Source: Planctomycetes bacterium GWF2_42_9
GTDB lineage: Bacteria; Planctomycetota; Phycisphaerae; Sedimentisphaerales; UBA12454
DNA length: 53,317 nucleotides
Assembly: GCA_001825675.1 (NCBI GenBank)
Contig: MHYA01000155.1
Coordinates: 1-53,317, forward strand
Reading direction: 5' to 3'
Program-made: the position numbers and the translations under genes
The notes under the pieces: generated by a model
Database searches by the model: none
Told to the model about the DNA's origin: nothing
The model's input: the letters and a program-made list of their open reading frames with translations, nothing else
Shown here: one piece after another, positions 4,464 through 14,229 of the stretch
How the letters are laid out: every line of letters begins with the position of its first letter
Position numbering within the stretch: the first letter of the stretch is position 1

Positions 4464-5120
4464 TTAACCTTTGATGATATACTTTTTTATTTTACCAAAG
4501 ACAGTATCATTCCACCGTTGAGATATCCAGCAATGGGCCCATAGGTTGGGATGTACCATATCAGCAGACCACTTTTCACTACTTACACACGCCGATAACG
4601 AATCAATTTCACTTTGTAAATTTAGAAGTGTAATATTATATTCCGTGGCGAGTTTCGCACATATTTTCTGATAATGCTTTAATTCTTTAAACATATCATT
4701 GTTTTTATCATTACAGAACATAAATGGCTCTATGATAATGATATCAGATTTGCAAGAATTTAACACCATTTGGATCATTTGGCGGTAATTTGCCTCAAAC
4801 TGTTCAGGGTAAACAGCCTCACTGACTTTATCTTTTTCATATCTCCTCCACAAATCATTAATACCTATCAGGATTGTTATGATGTCGGCTTTATAATCGG
4901 TACAATCGGTTTTCCATCTATTCAGTAACTGTGTTGATGTATTACCAGAGATACCTGTGTTTATTATTTGAATTTCTAAATCAGGATATTTAGCCATCAA
5001 CGCATAGGCTGCAAAATACACATAACCATTACCTAATGGCTGATATGCAGGATTATTTCTACCACAATCAGTAATGCTATCTCCGGTAAAAAGCAACTTT
5101 ACTGTTTTTTTTAGAACCAT
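4464..5120 (-). CDS. SGNH/GDSL hydrolase, probable carbohydrate esterase
   Basis: 218 residues with all four SGNH blocks in normal order: Ser15 in FTGDSITD, GISGN (oxyanion Gly) at about 56-60, Asn88 in IGINDLW, and Asp187/His190 in DMVHPN. There is no signal peptide. Such proteins commonly deacetylate sugars or oligosaccharides. Its place between a GH2 beta-mannosidase-like gene and a GH38 alpha-mannosidase gene suggests removal of acyl groups that block the exo-glycosidases. The start is supported by GGAG eight bases upstream of the ATG at 5120. The acyl group and sugar are unknown. Confidence 0.88.
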   Translation of the reverse strand: MVLKKTVKLLFTGDSITDCGRNNPAYQPLGNGYVYFAAYALMAKYPDLEIQIINTGISGNTSTQLLNRWKTDCTDYKADIITILIGINDLWRRYEKDKVSEAVYPEQFEANYRQMIQMVLNSCKSDIIIIEPFMFCNDKNNDMFKELKHYQKICAKLATEYNITLLNLQSEIDSLSACVSSEKWSADMVHPNLWAHCWISQRWNDTVFGKIKKYIIKG

Positions 5121-7316: not shown

Positions 7317-8801
7317 TTAGAAATATTTATAATAAGGACTCATTGCGTAATTGAGCATATTTTTGGAATCGCACATAGGGTTCCAGAGCATTTGCGAAAA
7401 CAAAGCGACACTCGGCTGTATGCATTCTTCGAACATCCCGTCTTCTATAAGCCCCGTTACAGTCATTCGCGATGGTTTTGATGCCAGCAATTCCTTATAA
7501 AACCGTTGAGCATGCTTGTAATTCATGAACCACAAGCGATTCACCTCATCCCATCGTGCCTGCCGTTCACACAACCGCTTCTTTATAAAATCATGTTCTC
7601 GTTGTCCTAAAATGAACGAGCCATGATTTTCAAATTCTTCTTTCCACCGCAGTGTAATCCAGCCTTTGGGCACCATTGCAAATTCACAGCCAAGTCTTAA
7701 TGCAGCAAGTTTTTTAGAATATTCTATTGTCTTATCAACACTATCAATTCCAACTGGTTTAGAAAAGCCTGCATCAGACTGGTTCGTAACAGGATTATAG
7801 GAATACGGTATCACTCCGGCATCTTCCCAGACAAGACTTACCTTCGAATCGAGATATTTGAATTGTGTATAATTATCAAGAACACTCGTAGCATGAATAC
7901 CGAACTGAAGATAAAGCTCCGGCCGCTGATTCAGTATCTCTCCTGCGACCTGATTGACAAGTGTACATGCGGCGGATGCAATTGATTGACCACCGATTTG
8001 AGTATTTCCGTGTTCTGTAATCGTCTGAAAGTAAATACCATCTGCGGAAATATGTTTATAATTCTGCGACCAGTTCATTAATACGGAAGATTTGATCTGT
8101 TCCCGGACACCGGCATCTGTCAAAATAAAATCCTTCTGCCCCCAATCCAATCCCCACCCCCAGTGAAAACCTAATATGATTTGCACCCCTCTGTCATGAG
8201 CATAATTAATTACCTCATTGATGTTATGTGGCAGACAATCATTCCAAATCGTCAGCATATTCATTCTGAGGCGTGCCAAATTGTCTATAAATCGCTTGTA
8301 ATCATATATTACATATCCCCATGTCCAGATGCCCCTGTTATCGATACGCGGATACTCTGAAATTACAAAATTCCGCAATTTATTTAATTGCTCCTGCGTT
8401 TCCTTAGGCGTTTCAGCAGTAATTTCCAAATGCAGTATTGAATTTATATGTTGGACTCCATATAAAACAGCCTGTTCATCAAAACCGGCAATCGCAAGAA
8501 TACGAGCTTCCGAATTCCAAGGAGAAATACCGGAAAAAATCGAATATTCGCCAGATCTCGTTGGCAAAGATATGACACCCTTATCTACCATTTCTGCAAT
8601 GAGTTGATTATCTTTTATGGTACCTGCAATTACGGCATGAAACAACTCGGGGGTGAATTCTCGACTGGGTCGAACTTCTATAAGATACGGCACAAACTTC
8701 TGCACACATTTATTAAGTTCATCAACTGCAAACTTCTCAATTCCAGAATATTTGCCAAAAAATAATTTCCATCTTGTACCATTATAAATTTTCTGAGGCA
8801 T
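7317..8801 (-). CDS. uncharacterised TIM-barrel glycosidase-like protein (GH20/GH67-type layout)
   Basis: 494 residues, not assignable to a named GH family by eye. The first 130 or so residues look like the alpha/beta domain found before the barrel in GH20, GH67 and GH84-type enzymes (FAVDELNKCV, VIAGT, DEQAVLYGVQHI). A barrel follows with YPRIDNRGIWTWGYVIYD, MNMLTIWND, GVQIILGFHWGWGLD and SADGIYFQTITEHGNT. The last segment holds an acidic pair reminiscent of alpha-glucuronidases. No signal peptide. It lies between the GH2-like gene and an SGNH gene in the same operon, so a role on a side-chain sugar of the same glycan is likely. Possible substrates include uronic acid or hexosamine residues, but this is a guess. 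Confidence 0.6.
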   Translation of the reverse strand: MPQKIYNGTRWKLFFGKYSGIEKFAVDELNKCVQKFVPYLIEVRPSREFTPELFHAVIAGTIKDNQLIAEMVDKGVISLPTRSGEYSIFSGISPWNSEARILAIAGFDEQAVLYGVQHINSILHLEITAETPKETQEQLNKLRNFVISEYPRIDNRGIWTWGYVIYDYKRFIDNLARLRMNMLTIWNDCLPHNINEVINYAHDRGVQIILGFHWGWGLDWGQKDFILTDAGVREQIKSSVLMNWSQNYKHISADGIYFQTITEHGNTQIGGQSIASAACTLVNQVAGEILNQRPELYLQFGIHATSVLDNYTQFKYLDSKVSLVWEDAGVIPYSYNPVTNQSDAGFSKPVGIDSVDKTIEYSKKLAALRLGCEFAMVPKGWITLRWKEEFENHGSFILGQREHDFIKKRLCERQARWDEVNRLWFMNYKHAQRFYKELLASKPSRMTVTGLIEDGMFEECIQPSVALFSQMLWNPMCDSKNMLNYAMSPYYKYF

Positions 8802-8831: not shown

Positions 8832-9572
8832 CTAATTAAAATTATACAACGCAGATAACCATGCCGGATATGTCTGTCCTGTCGAAGTACCTTCGCCTTT
8901 TACATGCACACCGAATGTAATGCTGTCACCAACACATGCAATTTTTTCCGGCTTTAATTGTTGCGACTCCATAAATCCATATAGAGCCGTTGCCATAATT
9001 TTATAGCCATCCGAGGTAGGATGAATGCCATCCTGTGCATTACTGTTTTCTGAATTCCGAATCAAACTGTCTTTTTCGAGCCCAACATTGCCAATTGACA
9101 TGAAAATTCTATAAATATCCAGCACAGGGATACCCTCTTTCGCTGCAAAAGCTTTTATAGCACTGTTATAGATCTTCACTTTATCTTCAGGTGTGTGGGC
9201 TTCGAAGAATTGGGCAGGATGCCGCATAAGCACGTATTTCCCATAACAAGGAGGTATGGTCATGAGAATCAGAGTAATCTTCTCAGTCCGAGCAAGGTCT
9301 GATATCTTTTTCAGATTTTCTGTAAACCGCTCAACTGTAACCGACTTAGATGAATTCAGACTGTCGTTGGTACCGACCATAAGAATTATAGTATCAGGCT
9401 TTGCTTTGAGAATATCGGGGAATCTATTGAGAATATCATTGCTATTCTGGCCGCCAATTCCATTATTAATAACCTCAATTTTTTTGGTTGAACACTGTGA
9501 TGGTTCTGCAGCAAAACCTAAACTCATACAAAACGTAATACTCGCAATTGAACATAATATTATTGTTCGCAT
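8832..9572 (-). CDS. secreted SGNH-type esterase with circularly permuted blocks
   Basis: 246 residues. An N-terminal signal peptide (about 1-22, ending GFAA) is followed directly by what is normally the second part of an SGNH domain: NNGIGGQNS (block II, about 36-44), MVGTND (block III, Asn69) and DGIHPT (block V, Asp181/His184). Block I, which carries the catalytic Ser and normally opens the domain, is at the C-terminus (VGDSITFG, Ser217), and the protein ends at ALYNFN. Each block occurs once, in order II-III-V-I. The stop is clean, and the start has AAAGG six bases upstream. It is either a natural circular permutant or a chimera of two SGNH genes. Likely role: extracellular deacylation of the glycan used by this locus. 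Confidence 0.8.
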   Translation of the reverse strand: MRTIILCSIASITFCMSLGFAAEPSQCSTKKIEVINNGIGGQNSNDILNRFPDILKAKPDTIILMVGTNDSLNSSKSVTVERFTENLKKISDLARTEKITLILMTIPPCYGKYVLMRHPAQFFEAHTPEDKVKIYNSAIKAFAAKEGIPVLDIYRIFMSIGNVGLEKDSLIRNSENSNAQDGIHPTSDGYKIMATALYGFMESQQLKPEKIACVGDSITFGVHVKGEGTSTGQTYPAWLSALYNFN

Positions 9573-10851: not shown

Positions 10852-13800
10852 CTAATTGAGCCAGTTTGGTGCAAGCATTGCTAAATCAGCAAAATCAATT
10901 TTGCCATTCTGGTCACAATCCGCACCATCACACCATTGATTGTCTGAACTGCAGGATGAAATCAGCCAGTTAGCTGCAAGAAGACCCAAATCCTCAAAGT
11001 TAGTAAAATTGTCTTTATTAATATCTCCAAACCAATATTGGGGAATCCAACTGGTAGAGAAATTATCCATAAAAATCTGAACTCCGGCTATTTCTCCGCC
11101 CCTAATTTCAGCCTTCGTGAAATAATCAACGGCATTAAACAGTGACCACCCATCGCCATCATTGTCATAAACCTGACCATCGATTCTGATAAACCAGGCG
11201 TCTCCGTCAGGTAATGTCCTTGCCTCTATTTCGACTAGATGGTACTGATCCGTAGAAATTTCGATTGGTGTCTGCCAGCCGCTATGAAGCGGTGAATAAA
11301 TCTTTATCTGGGCAGTATTTGAACTTGTATAGAATAACGTTGCCAAAGTTGCACGATCTTCGGTTGCATGATCACTGGTTTTAATACCCTTAATTGAGAA
11401 ATCGAACGAACGAGTCTCTGATTGTATTGCTACATTTGAAGGAACATAAATTCGGAAATTCCATCTTACAGCAGTTTTGTTCATCAGTGATGTGTAAACA
11501 CTTGGCCGGAAACTCATGGGGTCAGAAATAATCTTAAAACTCAATGCATGCATATCGCCATATATCCATTGCGGCAAAACTCCAGCAGTCTCATTCCCAA
11601 ATACTTGGACTTGATTAATAATGGTAGATTCCTGCACTGTCCAGGGAGGAGAGCAGGGATCATTATCATAAGCTGAAGTAAATGCCGGCACAGCAACATC
11701 AGTTTCAAATCCATAATTTAAAATAGATACATCCTTTTTCACAAATGGTTGCAGGTAAGGCCATTCCAAATCTGATGGAACAATATTAACCGGCCAGTTT
11801 CCAGGCGTTGCAAATGTCTGCCTAACAGCCTCAAGATCGCCAAAACCAACTTTATTCGTAGGTTCCAGAACGCATCCCTCACCGTACTCATTCCAATTGC
11901 CCAAAATACAGAATGTTTGGCCATAAGTATCCATATGAGTCTTGAGCAATGAAAGCGCCTCGCCCCAATACACCGAACTATGCTCAAATCGGCGAAGCCC
12001 CATGGGGCCTTTCCATGGTCTTCTGTCATAAGTGGGCGTCAATGTGGGCATATAATCCAAATCTAATCCGACCCTGGTTTGCTCAACATTGTCCCACTTT
12101 TCCCGGTGTTTCAAAACAAATTCATGATATGGAGAATGATCTGTCACCTGACCTGTATTGGCAAAAGCATACTCGGTAACAAAATCAAAACCGCACTCTT
12201 TATATAGCGACATAACCGAAGAAGAGTTTTCACTCTGCATACATAAGCCAATATATAAACCGGGCAAACCTGCATCGATACATCTTTGACGCATGGAATT
12301 TAAGGTTGCAGCAACTGTGCTCGCAGATGCAGGAGTACCGTTTCCTAAACCCATTCTTAAACTATACAGGCTCCAAAAAATAATGCAGGGTTTTTCATCG
12401 ATTCGCAAATAATTAGATTGCTTTAAATAGTTGTTAATCCAAAAATCGGTTATCTGCGTTAATTCCGCATCTGTGCTGCCGGCAAAAGGTTCGTGATTAC
12501 ATAAGAGCAAACAGAATTTCATCATATTTTTATAACGCGCTCGCATGAAACCGTCGCGCAACGCAGCACCAAGTCTTTCAGTACCATTTTGCCAGTACCA
12601 ATCAAATATGAAAAAATTAACTCCGTTTTCGACAGCGAATTTAATCTGCCAATCCGAAACCTCCGGCTGCCCCTCAAGATATTTACCTATCACTGGTTCA
12701 AGCCCAAGATAGTCATAGCTTTGCCAGTAATTACATTCATTTGACCATCCTGGAAAATAAAAAGTCCCAATATTATAATTTGTATTTATCGGTACCGGCA
12801 CCGGAACCGCATAACTACCAGGCGTTATTTTTGAGGTCGGCTCATCAATGCGAAGGTTTTCTATAAATTTTTGACCATTATAGTGGCATTCTAACACACT
12901 TTGACCATCGGCAAGAGGCAATACTTGTGTTTCAACAGTAACATTCTGGCCCGGATTTATCGCAGGAACTGTTACTGACGCTATTGGAGAAAAATAATTA
13001 GAATCAGAAGTAAAAGTCATCAATGATGACGGTATTGCCGGGCCGGAAATATGTTTTAATGTAATGCTGATAGTCGCAGCTCGGTTAGGCCGATTTATAG
13101 CATCTTTGAAACCAACGTATGTTGCTCTTACAACCGGAACTCCTGCTGTATTGTAATAAAATCCTAAAGAATCTATAGATAATTGTTCATCGCCATAAGT
13201 ACCAATGCCAATACCGATGTCTGTAATGGTGCCCGTCCACGTTTCCTCCGTTCTTAAATCAATGCCTTCACTGGGATCAGACCGGCCATTCTTTAATGGA
13301 ATTGGTATTCCCATAAAGCTGATCATTTCTGAATTTTTCCAATAAAGAGTTACACTGTCCTCACCGGGACAGTTGACATCCAGCCTTAAAATACTTGTTG
13401 AATTAGAATCAAACGGATTCACTTGCGCAGCAATTATTCCAAAAGTCTTACCGGAAGCGATCGAAACATTCAGTTTTCCTGAACTGCGAGACAAAATTGC
13501 CGAATCGTAATTTTGCCAGTCATCATCGGGGTCAAGAGGATCCTCGAAACTCCAAACGGGCAATCCGGTTGGGCCGCCGGAACCATCCACACTAACCTGG
13601 TCAACAAAAGCATATACATTTGAATTCGTATTTGTGTTGCTAAACATCACTTTATCTAATTTGCTGCATGACGACTGAAAACCATAGCCTTGTCCAGAGT
13701 TGTCAAATTTGGTTCCATTATAATAAATTACGTATTTCTGATTAGATACATCACCAAGCAATTCCAATTTAATTTGAAAATACTGATTTTCTGCAACAGG

Positions 13801-14229
13801 TGTAATATAAGTAGCAACGCTGTTTTGAAAACATGTCAAATAACGCAAATTATTATAAGTCAGGAATGTCAGATAAGGCCCTGTTGTAAATCCATCCCGC
13901 TGAAGCATTATATTAACTGAGCGGTTCTCTCCGCTATAATTAGTTCTATTCGCTGACGGTTCATAACACCATATAGTTACTGCATTAATGTTCGCCGTAG
14001 TACCATAAGATTTATAAAACCAGCCCCCGCTTCCACCTGTGATCTTTACAGCTTGTCCTGTGCCGCCGTAAACAGGTGATGTAATTTTGTTTACATTGCC
14101 TGAAACAGACCATCCGCTATATAAGCCAGCTAAATCAAAAGAACTCAATTCAGGAAAAATACCGCCATAGACAATTGATTCACACATTACACAAAGCAAA
14201 ACATATTTTAAAATTCTTTGAAGGCTCAT
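10852..14229 (-). CDS. secreted GH99-like/WbsX-type protein with N-terminal beta-module and dockerin
   Basis: 1125 residues. Order: signal peptide (1-22); a 190-residue beta-module (about 26-215, with WCYEPSANR) shared with the next two upstream secreted proteins; a second jelly-roll-like part (about 225-360); a linker domain; a GH99-like barrel (about 480-815) opening NIGTFYFPGW, with FFIFDWYW and WNEYGEG; a lectin-like beta domain (about 880-1060); and a C-terminal dockerin-like pair, GDINKDNFTNFEDLGLLAANWL-type and CDQNGKIDFADLAMLAPNWL. The WNEYGEG motif is the hallmark of the GH99-like WbsX group; true GH99 enzymes are endo-alpha-mannosidases. It probably acts outside the cell as the endo-acting enzyme of the locus. 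Catalytic residues are not proven. Confidence 0.82.
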   Translation of the reverse strand: MSLQRILKYVLLCVMCESIVYGGIFPELSSFDLAGLYSGWSVSGNVNKITSPVYGGTGQAVKITGGSGGWFYKSYGTTANINAVTIWCYEPSANRTNYSGENRSVNIMLQRDGFTTGPYLTFLTYNNLRYLTCFQNSVATYITPVAENQYFQIKLELLGDVSNQKYVIYYNGTKFDNSGQGYGFQSSCSKLDKVMFSNTNTNSNVYAFVDQVSVDGSGGPTGLPVWSFEDPLDPDDDWQNYDSAILSRSSGKLNVSIASGKTFGIIAAQVNPFDSNSTSILRLDVNCPGEDSVTLYWKNSEMISFMGIPIPLKNGRSDPSEGIDLRTEETWTGTITDIGIGIGTYGDEQLSIDSLGFYYNTAGVPVVRATYVGFKDAINRPNRAATISITLKHISGPAIPSSLMTFTSDSNYFSPIASVTVPAINPGQNVTVETQVLPLADGQSVLECHYNGQKFIENLRIDEPTSKITPGSYAVPVPVPINTNYNIGTFYFPGWSNECNYWQSYDYLGLEPVIGKYLEGQPEVSDWQIKFAVENGVNFFIFDWYWQNGTERLGAALRDGFMRARYKNMMKFCLLLCNHEPFAGSTDAELTQITDFWINNYLKQSNYLRIDEKPCIIFWSLYSLRMGLGNGTPASASTVAATLNSMRQRCIDAGLPGLYIGLCMQSENSSSVMSLYKECGFDFVTEYAFANTGQVTDHSPYHEFVLKHREKWDNVEQTRVGLDLDYMPTLTPTYDRRPWKGPMGLRRFEHSSVYWGEALSLLKTHMDTYGQTFCILGNWNEYGEGCVLEPTNKVGFGDLEAVRQTFATPGNWPVNIVPSDLEWPYLQPFVKKDVSILNYGFETDVAVPAFTSAYDNDPCSPPWTVQESTIINQVQVFGNETAGVLPQWIYGDMHALSFKIISDPMSFRPSVYTSLMNKTAVRWNFRIYVPSNVAIQSETRSFDFSIKGIKTSDHATEDRATLATLFYTSSNTAQIKIYSPLHSGWQTPIEISTDQYHLVEIEARTLPDGDAWFIRIDGQVYDNDGDGWSLFNAVDYFTKAEIRGGEIAGVQIFMDNFSTSWIPQYWFGDINKDNFTNFEDLGLLAANWLISSCSSDNQWCDGADCDQNGKIDFADLAMLAPNWLN

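Follow-up and report, generated by a model that had tools for sequence, protein, structure and literature searches.

The window analysed here, a stretch of 53,317 nucleotides that makes up one contig of the assembly Planctomycetes bacterium GWF2_42_9, encodes an SGNH hydrolase in which the block carrying the putative catalytic serine closes the chain instead of opening it. In this reading frame of 246 residues every block occurs once and the block order is II, III, V, I (Table 1), as an earlier note on this DNA had claimed; the translation, the checked residue numbers and a profile match bear this out. The protein is very probably a secreted SGNH (GDSL-type) esterase with a circularly permuted domain that would de-esterify polysaccharide. 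The search for relatives with the same block order returned many of them, 57 non-identical permuted domains having been gathered and two more found afterwards, and this supports the circular permutation proposed in the earlier note and speaks against a one-off rearrangement. The permuted order thus appears to be genuine and handed down by descent.

Table 1. Features of the permuted SGNH gene in the window (residue numbers refer to the translated protein)
Feature	Position	Strand	Remark or basis
ORF of permuted SGNH hydrolase	8832..9572	minus	246 aa + stop, ATG start
Likely signal peptide, residues 1-22	9507..9572	minus	translation judged by eye
Block II, N36-x-G38-I-G-G41, putative oxyanion Gly38	9450..9467	minus	alignment
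Block III, G67-T-N69-D70, putative oxyanion Asn69	9363..9374	minus	alignment
Block V, D181-G-I-H184, putative catalytic Asp and His	9021..9032	minus	alignment
Block I, G215-D-S217-I-T-F-G221, putative nucleophile Ser217	8910..8930	minus	alignment and profile
C-terminal residues 235-246, YPAWLSALYNFN	8835..8870	minus	predicted helix and conservation

Block order and profile evidence

The block II region of the window protein reads KKIEVINNGIGGQNS, and its C-terminal end, KIACVGDSITFG...TYPAWLSALYNFN, comprises block I and the stretch behind it, the last twelve residues corresponding to the helix found behind block I in enzymes of normal order. The Ser, Gly, Asn and His residues of blocks I, II, III and V that characterise the SGNH superfamily are all present, together with an Asp three residues before the His, but they occur in the order G-N-H-S and not in the canonical order S-G-N-H. 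The protein resembles the SGNH/GDSL hydrolases of PF13472 (PDB 4iyj, 3p94 and 4ppy; E. coli TesA, 1ivn) in sequence family, in its four blocks and in the predicted fold of its body, whereas it differs from them in block order (I-II-III-V in those enzymes, II-III-V-I here) and in the position of the nucleophile, since Ser217 lies 33 residues after His184 and only 29 before the C-terminus. The next gene starts (position 8801) 30 bases past the stop codon, a gap that leaves no space for the remainder of a second SGNH domain; on the other side, the permuted gene begins one base after the end of the upstream ORF (9574).

The Pfam model Lipase_GDSL_2 (PF13472) recognises the window protein with an E-value of 3.7e-24 and a score of 86.6 bits, against a curated cut-off of 32.9, a second stretch being counted besides the best one. 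The best stretch enters the profile at position 33 (of 178), and block I is therefore absent from the N-terminus of the protein. The tail (residues 204-238) aligns weakly with positions 36-69 of 231, towards the N-terminus, in the NCBIfam model of the Rv0518 GDSL lipase (E 0.0098; 15.4 bits, far below the model cut-off of 300). A profile of 196 positions, for which 53 SGNH proteins of normal order were taken from the fetched loci, aligns with the body of the window protein at positions 32-194 and with its tail at positions 2-30 (tail i-E 0.00051); the two matches are complementary and swapped, and together cover nearly the whole domain. When this profile is run against the 57 permuted domains (E-values for 57 sequences, filters off), the swapped tail is recovered in 55 of them at i-E <= 0.01 and in all 57 at i-E <= 1, and after shuffling of the tails (one shuffle each) in 0 of 57, even at i-E <= 10.

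Conservation and spacing

In the alignment of all 57 domains, Gly67, Asn69, Asp181, His184, Cys213, Gly215, Asp216, Ser217 and Thr219 are present in every row, a count that for Ser217 is partly a product of construction (the collection script required a GDS-like motif) and for Gly67, Asn69 and others is partly forced by the patterns used to scan genome_contigs and the viral contigs, which contained stretches of GxND, block II or CxGDS; neither Asp181 nor His184 was part of a search filter. Gly38 occurs in all 56 rows with a letter at this position (one row of the 57 has a gap), Tyr235 in 52 and Pro236 in 55 of the 57 domains. The distance from His184 to Ser217 is 33 residues in 51 of the 57 and ranges from 29 to 35 overall. 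In 49 domains the frame ends at most 60 residues past the GDS motif, and in 48 of these it does so 20-43 residues after the Ser, the exception being locus L096, whose frame ends 2 residues after it. Cys213, which precedes the predicted catalytic Ser by four residues, is likewise invariant (57/57), with a possible bias for the four viral loci, as one of the two viral-scan patterns held this residue.

Predicted structure and proposed architecture

Aligned with 18 relatives (19 rows), the window protein is modelled by AlphaFold2 with a pLDDT of 92.1 and a pTM of 0.85; the model from the window sequence alone was too poor for use (pLDDT 37.4). Residues 1-30, the region of the likely signal peptide, are of low confidence, and within residues 201-240 there are blocks with a pLDDT of 95-98. 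The tail is modelled as a strand (210-215), a nucleophile turn (217-220) and a helix (235-245), which in this predicted fold is the arrangement expected of block I. The best PDB matches found by Foldseek are SGNH acylhydrolases, namely 9hi6 (a design scaffold) followed by 4iyj, 4ppy and 3p94 (best E about 1e-8); they cover about 170 columns with TM-scores of only about 0.5-0.6, as expected for a permutant because the alignment is sequential, and a non-sequential match is not thereby proven. Phage esterases or tail proteins are also found.

From the fold and the conservation we infer that Ser217 comes close to His184. The chain would begin at the second core strand (block II) and pass through block III, block V and the final helix; the opening elements of a normal domain, namely its first strand, nucleophile turn (GDSIT) and first helix, would come at the end. 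The permutation cut would lie in the loop between the first helix and strand 2, the old ends being joined via a short linker. In the folded protein, Ser217, His184 and Asp181, together with Gly38 and Asn69, would form an ordinary SGNH site, in which an O-acyl ester, most likely acetyl, would be cleaved by the usual acyl-enzyme route.

Relatives and distribution

The permuted domains come from the window's phylum, from Verrucomicrobiota-like genomes, from one Bacteroidia MAG and from four IMG/VR contigs, where phylum labels beyond the named loci are extrapolated from the named loci and an IMG/VR record can represent host DNA. No two of the 57 domains are identical, yet they are not independent, as near-copies stay among them (e.g., L195/L196 and L097/L098); L027 and L175 hold the same domain, which was counted once. 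Order calls rest on the sequences wherever the locus was fetched, and 43 matches are unclassified for order, among them L185 and L106.

Neither the family of the window's genome (13 genomes, E <= 1e-20) nor its taxonomic order (148 genomes, E <= 1e-15) yielded a match outside the window's own assembly (1/13 and 1/148). At class level (397 genomes, E <= 1e-12) five genomes match, the window's own included; L012 and L013 have the window's block order, and L014 and L015 the normal one. In the phylum (392 genomes, E 1e-15) 46 genomes match; the sequences show the permuted order in at least 14 of them, counting the window's own genome, a number that refers to the matches fetched, which are a part of the 46. 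Two of these 14 are cut short, L096 ending just after GDSLT and L106 being interrupted by the contig edge ahead of block II. In the phylum of the Verrucomicrobiales MAG that carries L018 (G802, included in the sample; 1e-30) 35 of 288 genomes match, and 29 of the 35 matches reach the C-terminal block I while six do not; among the 29, L185 has a frame that stops after block V. In the phylum of the Bacteroidia MAG that carries L022 (G806), 3 of 296 genomes match, G806 among them, all three with the C-terminal block I.

Single-sequence scans of genome_contigs and viral_contigs gave no matches, whereas alignment-based scans succeeded. The scan of genome_contigs returned 74 loci, and in the best 14 of them (L016-L029) the match continues into the C-terminal block I; going by the record titles, they come from Verrucomicrobiota/Verrucomicrobia, Verrucomicrobiales, Verrucomicrobiia, Victivallales, Kiritimatiellae, a single Bacteroidia and two bacteria without a name. 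The loci ranked below L029 have the normal order in those classified. Among 24 IMG/VR loci, four are permuted (L120, L121, L122 and L141). In the last three the permuted domain forms the end of an open frame that is 437-486 codons long. The immediately upstream ORF of L121 and L141 has matches to tail PHROGs and, in addition, to one PHROG without assigned function. In tblastn searches of INPHARED phages (the L120 domain matching 17 records and the L141 domain five) and of PLSDB plasmids (the window protein matching 26 records, 15 of them listed), none of the listed matches extends to the C-terminal block I.

A match from the phylum search, in genome G472, reaches profile position 233 and was left out of the permuted set, the locus (L208) being a tandem of two normal-order domains; profile coverage alone is therefore no proof of permutation.

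Origin of the permuted domain

A quick tree was calculated from 109 rows (56 permuted and 53 normal), the body and block I being aligned apart. It leaves out L096, five normal rows in which no block V was recognised and, by hand, five further normal rows (L132 and L134, which are near-copies of L131, as well as L055, L140 and L143). On the free tree the order label changes twice, compared with a mean of 36.8 changes with shuffled labels, none of 500 shuffles being as low. The smallest drawn group that includes all permuted rows has 67 rows (support 89), of which 11 have the normal order. When the permuted rows are held as one clade, the log-likelihood lies 22.38 above that of the free quick search and p-AU is 0.852, so that a single origin of the permuted rows is allowed, not proved; for the permuted clade plus L202 the p-value is 0.832.

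L202, found in the phylum search of G802 (genome G1049), is the sole one of the 11 normal-order rows that does not come from IMG/VR, the other ten being IMG/VR loci. In contrast to the permuted family, with which it groups, it has block I first, and it may be either an unpermuted sister of the permuted group or a reversion within it. The protein (L202:1375-2025) adjoins a sulfatase-like ORF, as judged by eye, and the segment that separates its blocks I and II is very short.

The permuted domain could derive from a normal domain that was duplicated in tandem or fused, the product then being trimmed at either end. Tandem normal-order proteins, L111 with two SGNH bodies and L208, make duplication and subsequent trimming plausible. 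In L208, 45 residues separate the His from the next Ser, and by eye the linking stretch exceeds that of the permuted family by about 12 residues. Within the extent of the fetched loci, an intermediate with block I at both ends was found in none of the 57 permuted and 63 normal ORFs, and the fetched part of none of the 57 permuted ORFs contains a second SGNH body. The ORF of L208 (330-3020, minus strand, 896 aa) has, by eye, an esterase-like region ahead of its two tandem normal-order SGNH domains.

Relation to known SGNH permutants

Permutation of the SGNH fold as such is already known. In the available portions of PMC9487903 and PMC4148444, AlgX/AlgJ and PatB1 (DHHW family) are described as circularly permuted SGNH folds, and WssI appears in this literature as related to them. 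AlgX/AlgJ have, in the part of PMC9487903 at hand, the block order H-S-G-N (V-I-II-III) with altered motifs, namely GTSYS, DxH and a Tyr in place of Asn; for PatB1 the accessible descriptions give KDS, DxRY and DHHW. By these descriptions the window family is set apart, having G-N-H-S with canonical GDSIT, GxND and DxxH: the window protein shows neither the order H-S-G-N nor GTSYS with DxH or KDS with DHHW, and carries GDSIT and DGIH instead. What distinguishes the family is thus the way in which a known fold is permuted. The expectation in the earlier note that a permuted SGNH esterase would be new has therefore to be narrowed to the cut point, which differs from that of the permutants in the accessible accounts. 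The G-N-H-S order was not found in the accessible parts of the open-access literature, preprints excluded (including PMC9487903, PMC4148444, PMC5697884, PMC3779223, PMC5408684, PMC12419801 and PMC2848206), and may be published elsewhere.

There is a reasonable likelihood that the family represents a second, undescribed natural type of SGNH permutation, catalytically canonical, which arose once with its cut between helix 1 and strand 2, occurs in the window's phylum, in Verrucomicrobiota and Bacteroidota and in some predicted phages, and has been overlooked because annotation sees a GDSL protein seemingly without block I. Where annotation looks for block I at the start, such genes may be labelled truncated or inactive, and estimates of how many carbohydrate esterases polysaccharide-degrading bacteria possess would then be biased. 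Circular permutants that occur naturally among well-studied enzymes are moreover useful tests of fold evolution; here normal-order and permuted homologues lie in one gene cluster, and the tandem normal-order proteins could serve as models of the precursor.

Alternative explanations

The block order is also what a trimmed fusion would show, and the earlier note had raised the alternative that the protein is the remnant of two fused SGNH proteins, the first without block I and the second reduced to it, with a dead or accidental product. The existence of tandem normal-order proteins lends this some substance, but order, spacing and catalytic residues are alike in the 57 domains; the alternative is very improbable and fails for the present protein, although a fusion of this kind may be its historical origin. 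An assembly chimera or frameshift artefact in the metagenome-assembled contig has a negligible chance of being right. The assembly is a draft of 214 contigs with 7.05% contamination, so that the host of the permuted gene is uncertain, yet the open frame is whole and an artefact is refuted by the independent contigs, L016-L029 included, that carry the same order.

A further alternative accepts the permutation and denies the hydrolysis: the domain would O-acetylate carbohydrates in the manner of AlgX/PatB1 or act as a binding module. The known SGNH permutants do serve polysaccharide O-acetylation according to the available text (PMC9487903; PMC4148444). However, the Asn in block III and the DxxH in block V are kept, unlike in AlgX/AlgJ, and the partners in the window and in several fusions are degradative glycosidases, which makes a non-hydrolytic domain improbable.

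Fusions, genomic neighbours and predicted function

The best guess for the permuted esterase family is a predicted carbohydrate O-deacylase. The domain occurs as a stand-alone protein or fused on either side to other domains, and some of the fusions and neighbours suggest polysaccharide de-esterification. The fusion partners include a GH36 melibiase with NPCBM (L027, and L175 with the same domain), an alkaline-ceramidase domain (L025), CBM4_9 (L176; in L187 the match lies just below the cut-off) and DUF6259 in six proteins (L092, L176, L178, L182, L183 and L191), each of which ends at the edge of its locus. In the window, the neighbours of the permuted gene include GH38, GH2 and a CBM9 protein, and the substrate would be an esterified polysaccharide that the neighbouring glycosidases process. 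Ten ORFs near relatives comprise a sulfatase and a xylose-isomerase-like TIM barrel (both L018), a GH38 (L024), AAT-like, FAD-oxidoreductase, GFO/IDH/MocA and fn3 proteins, and three without a Pfam match; that several of these are no carbohydrate enzymes speaks against the proposed role.

Several other genes of the window, all on the minus strand, deserve mention. The gene adjoining the permuted one (7317-8801, 494 aa) has no Pfam match at 0.001 and is glycosidase-like by eye, and a large protein (10852-14229) combines a WbsX domain with what looks by eye like a C-terminal dockerin-like repeat, a tail that would fit Planctomycetota. The normal-order SGNH protein in the permuted gene's own cluster (4464-5120, 218 aa) covers PF13472 positions 1-172 of 178, and the third SGNH gene of the contig (43630-44373, 247 aa) is also of normal order, with PF13472 positions 1-176 of 178.
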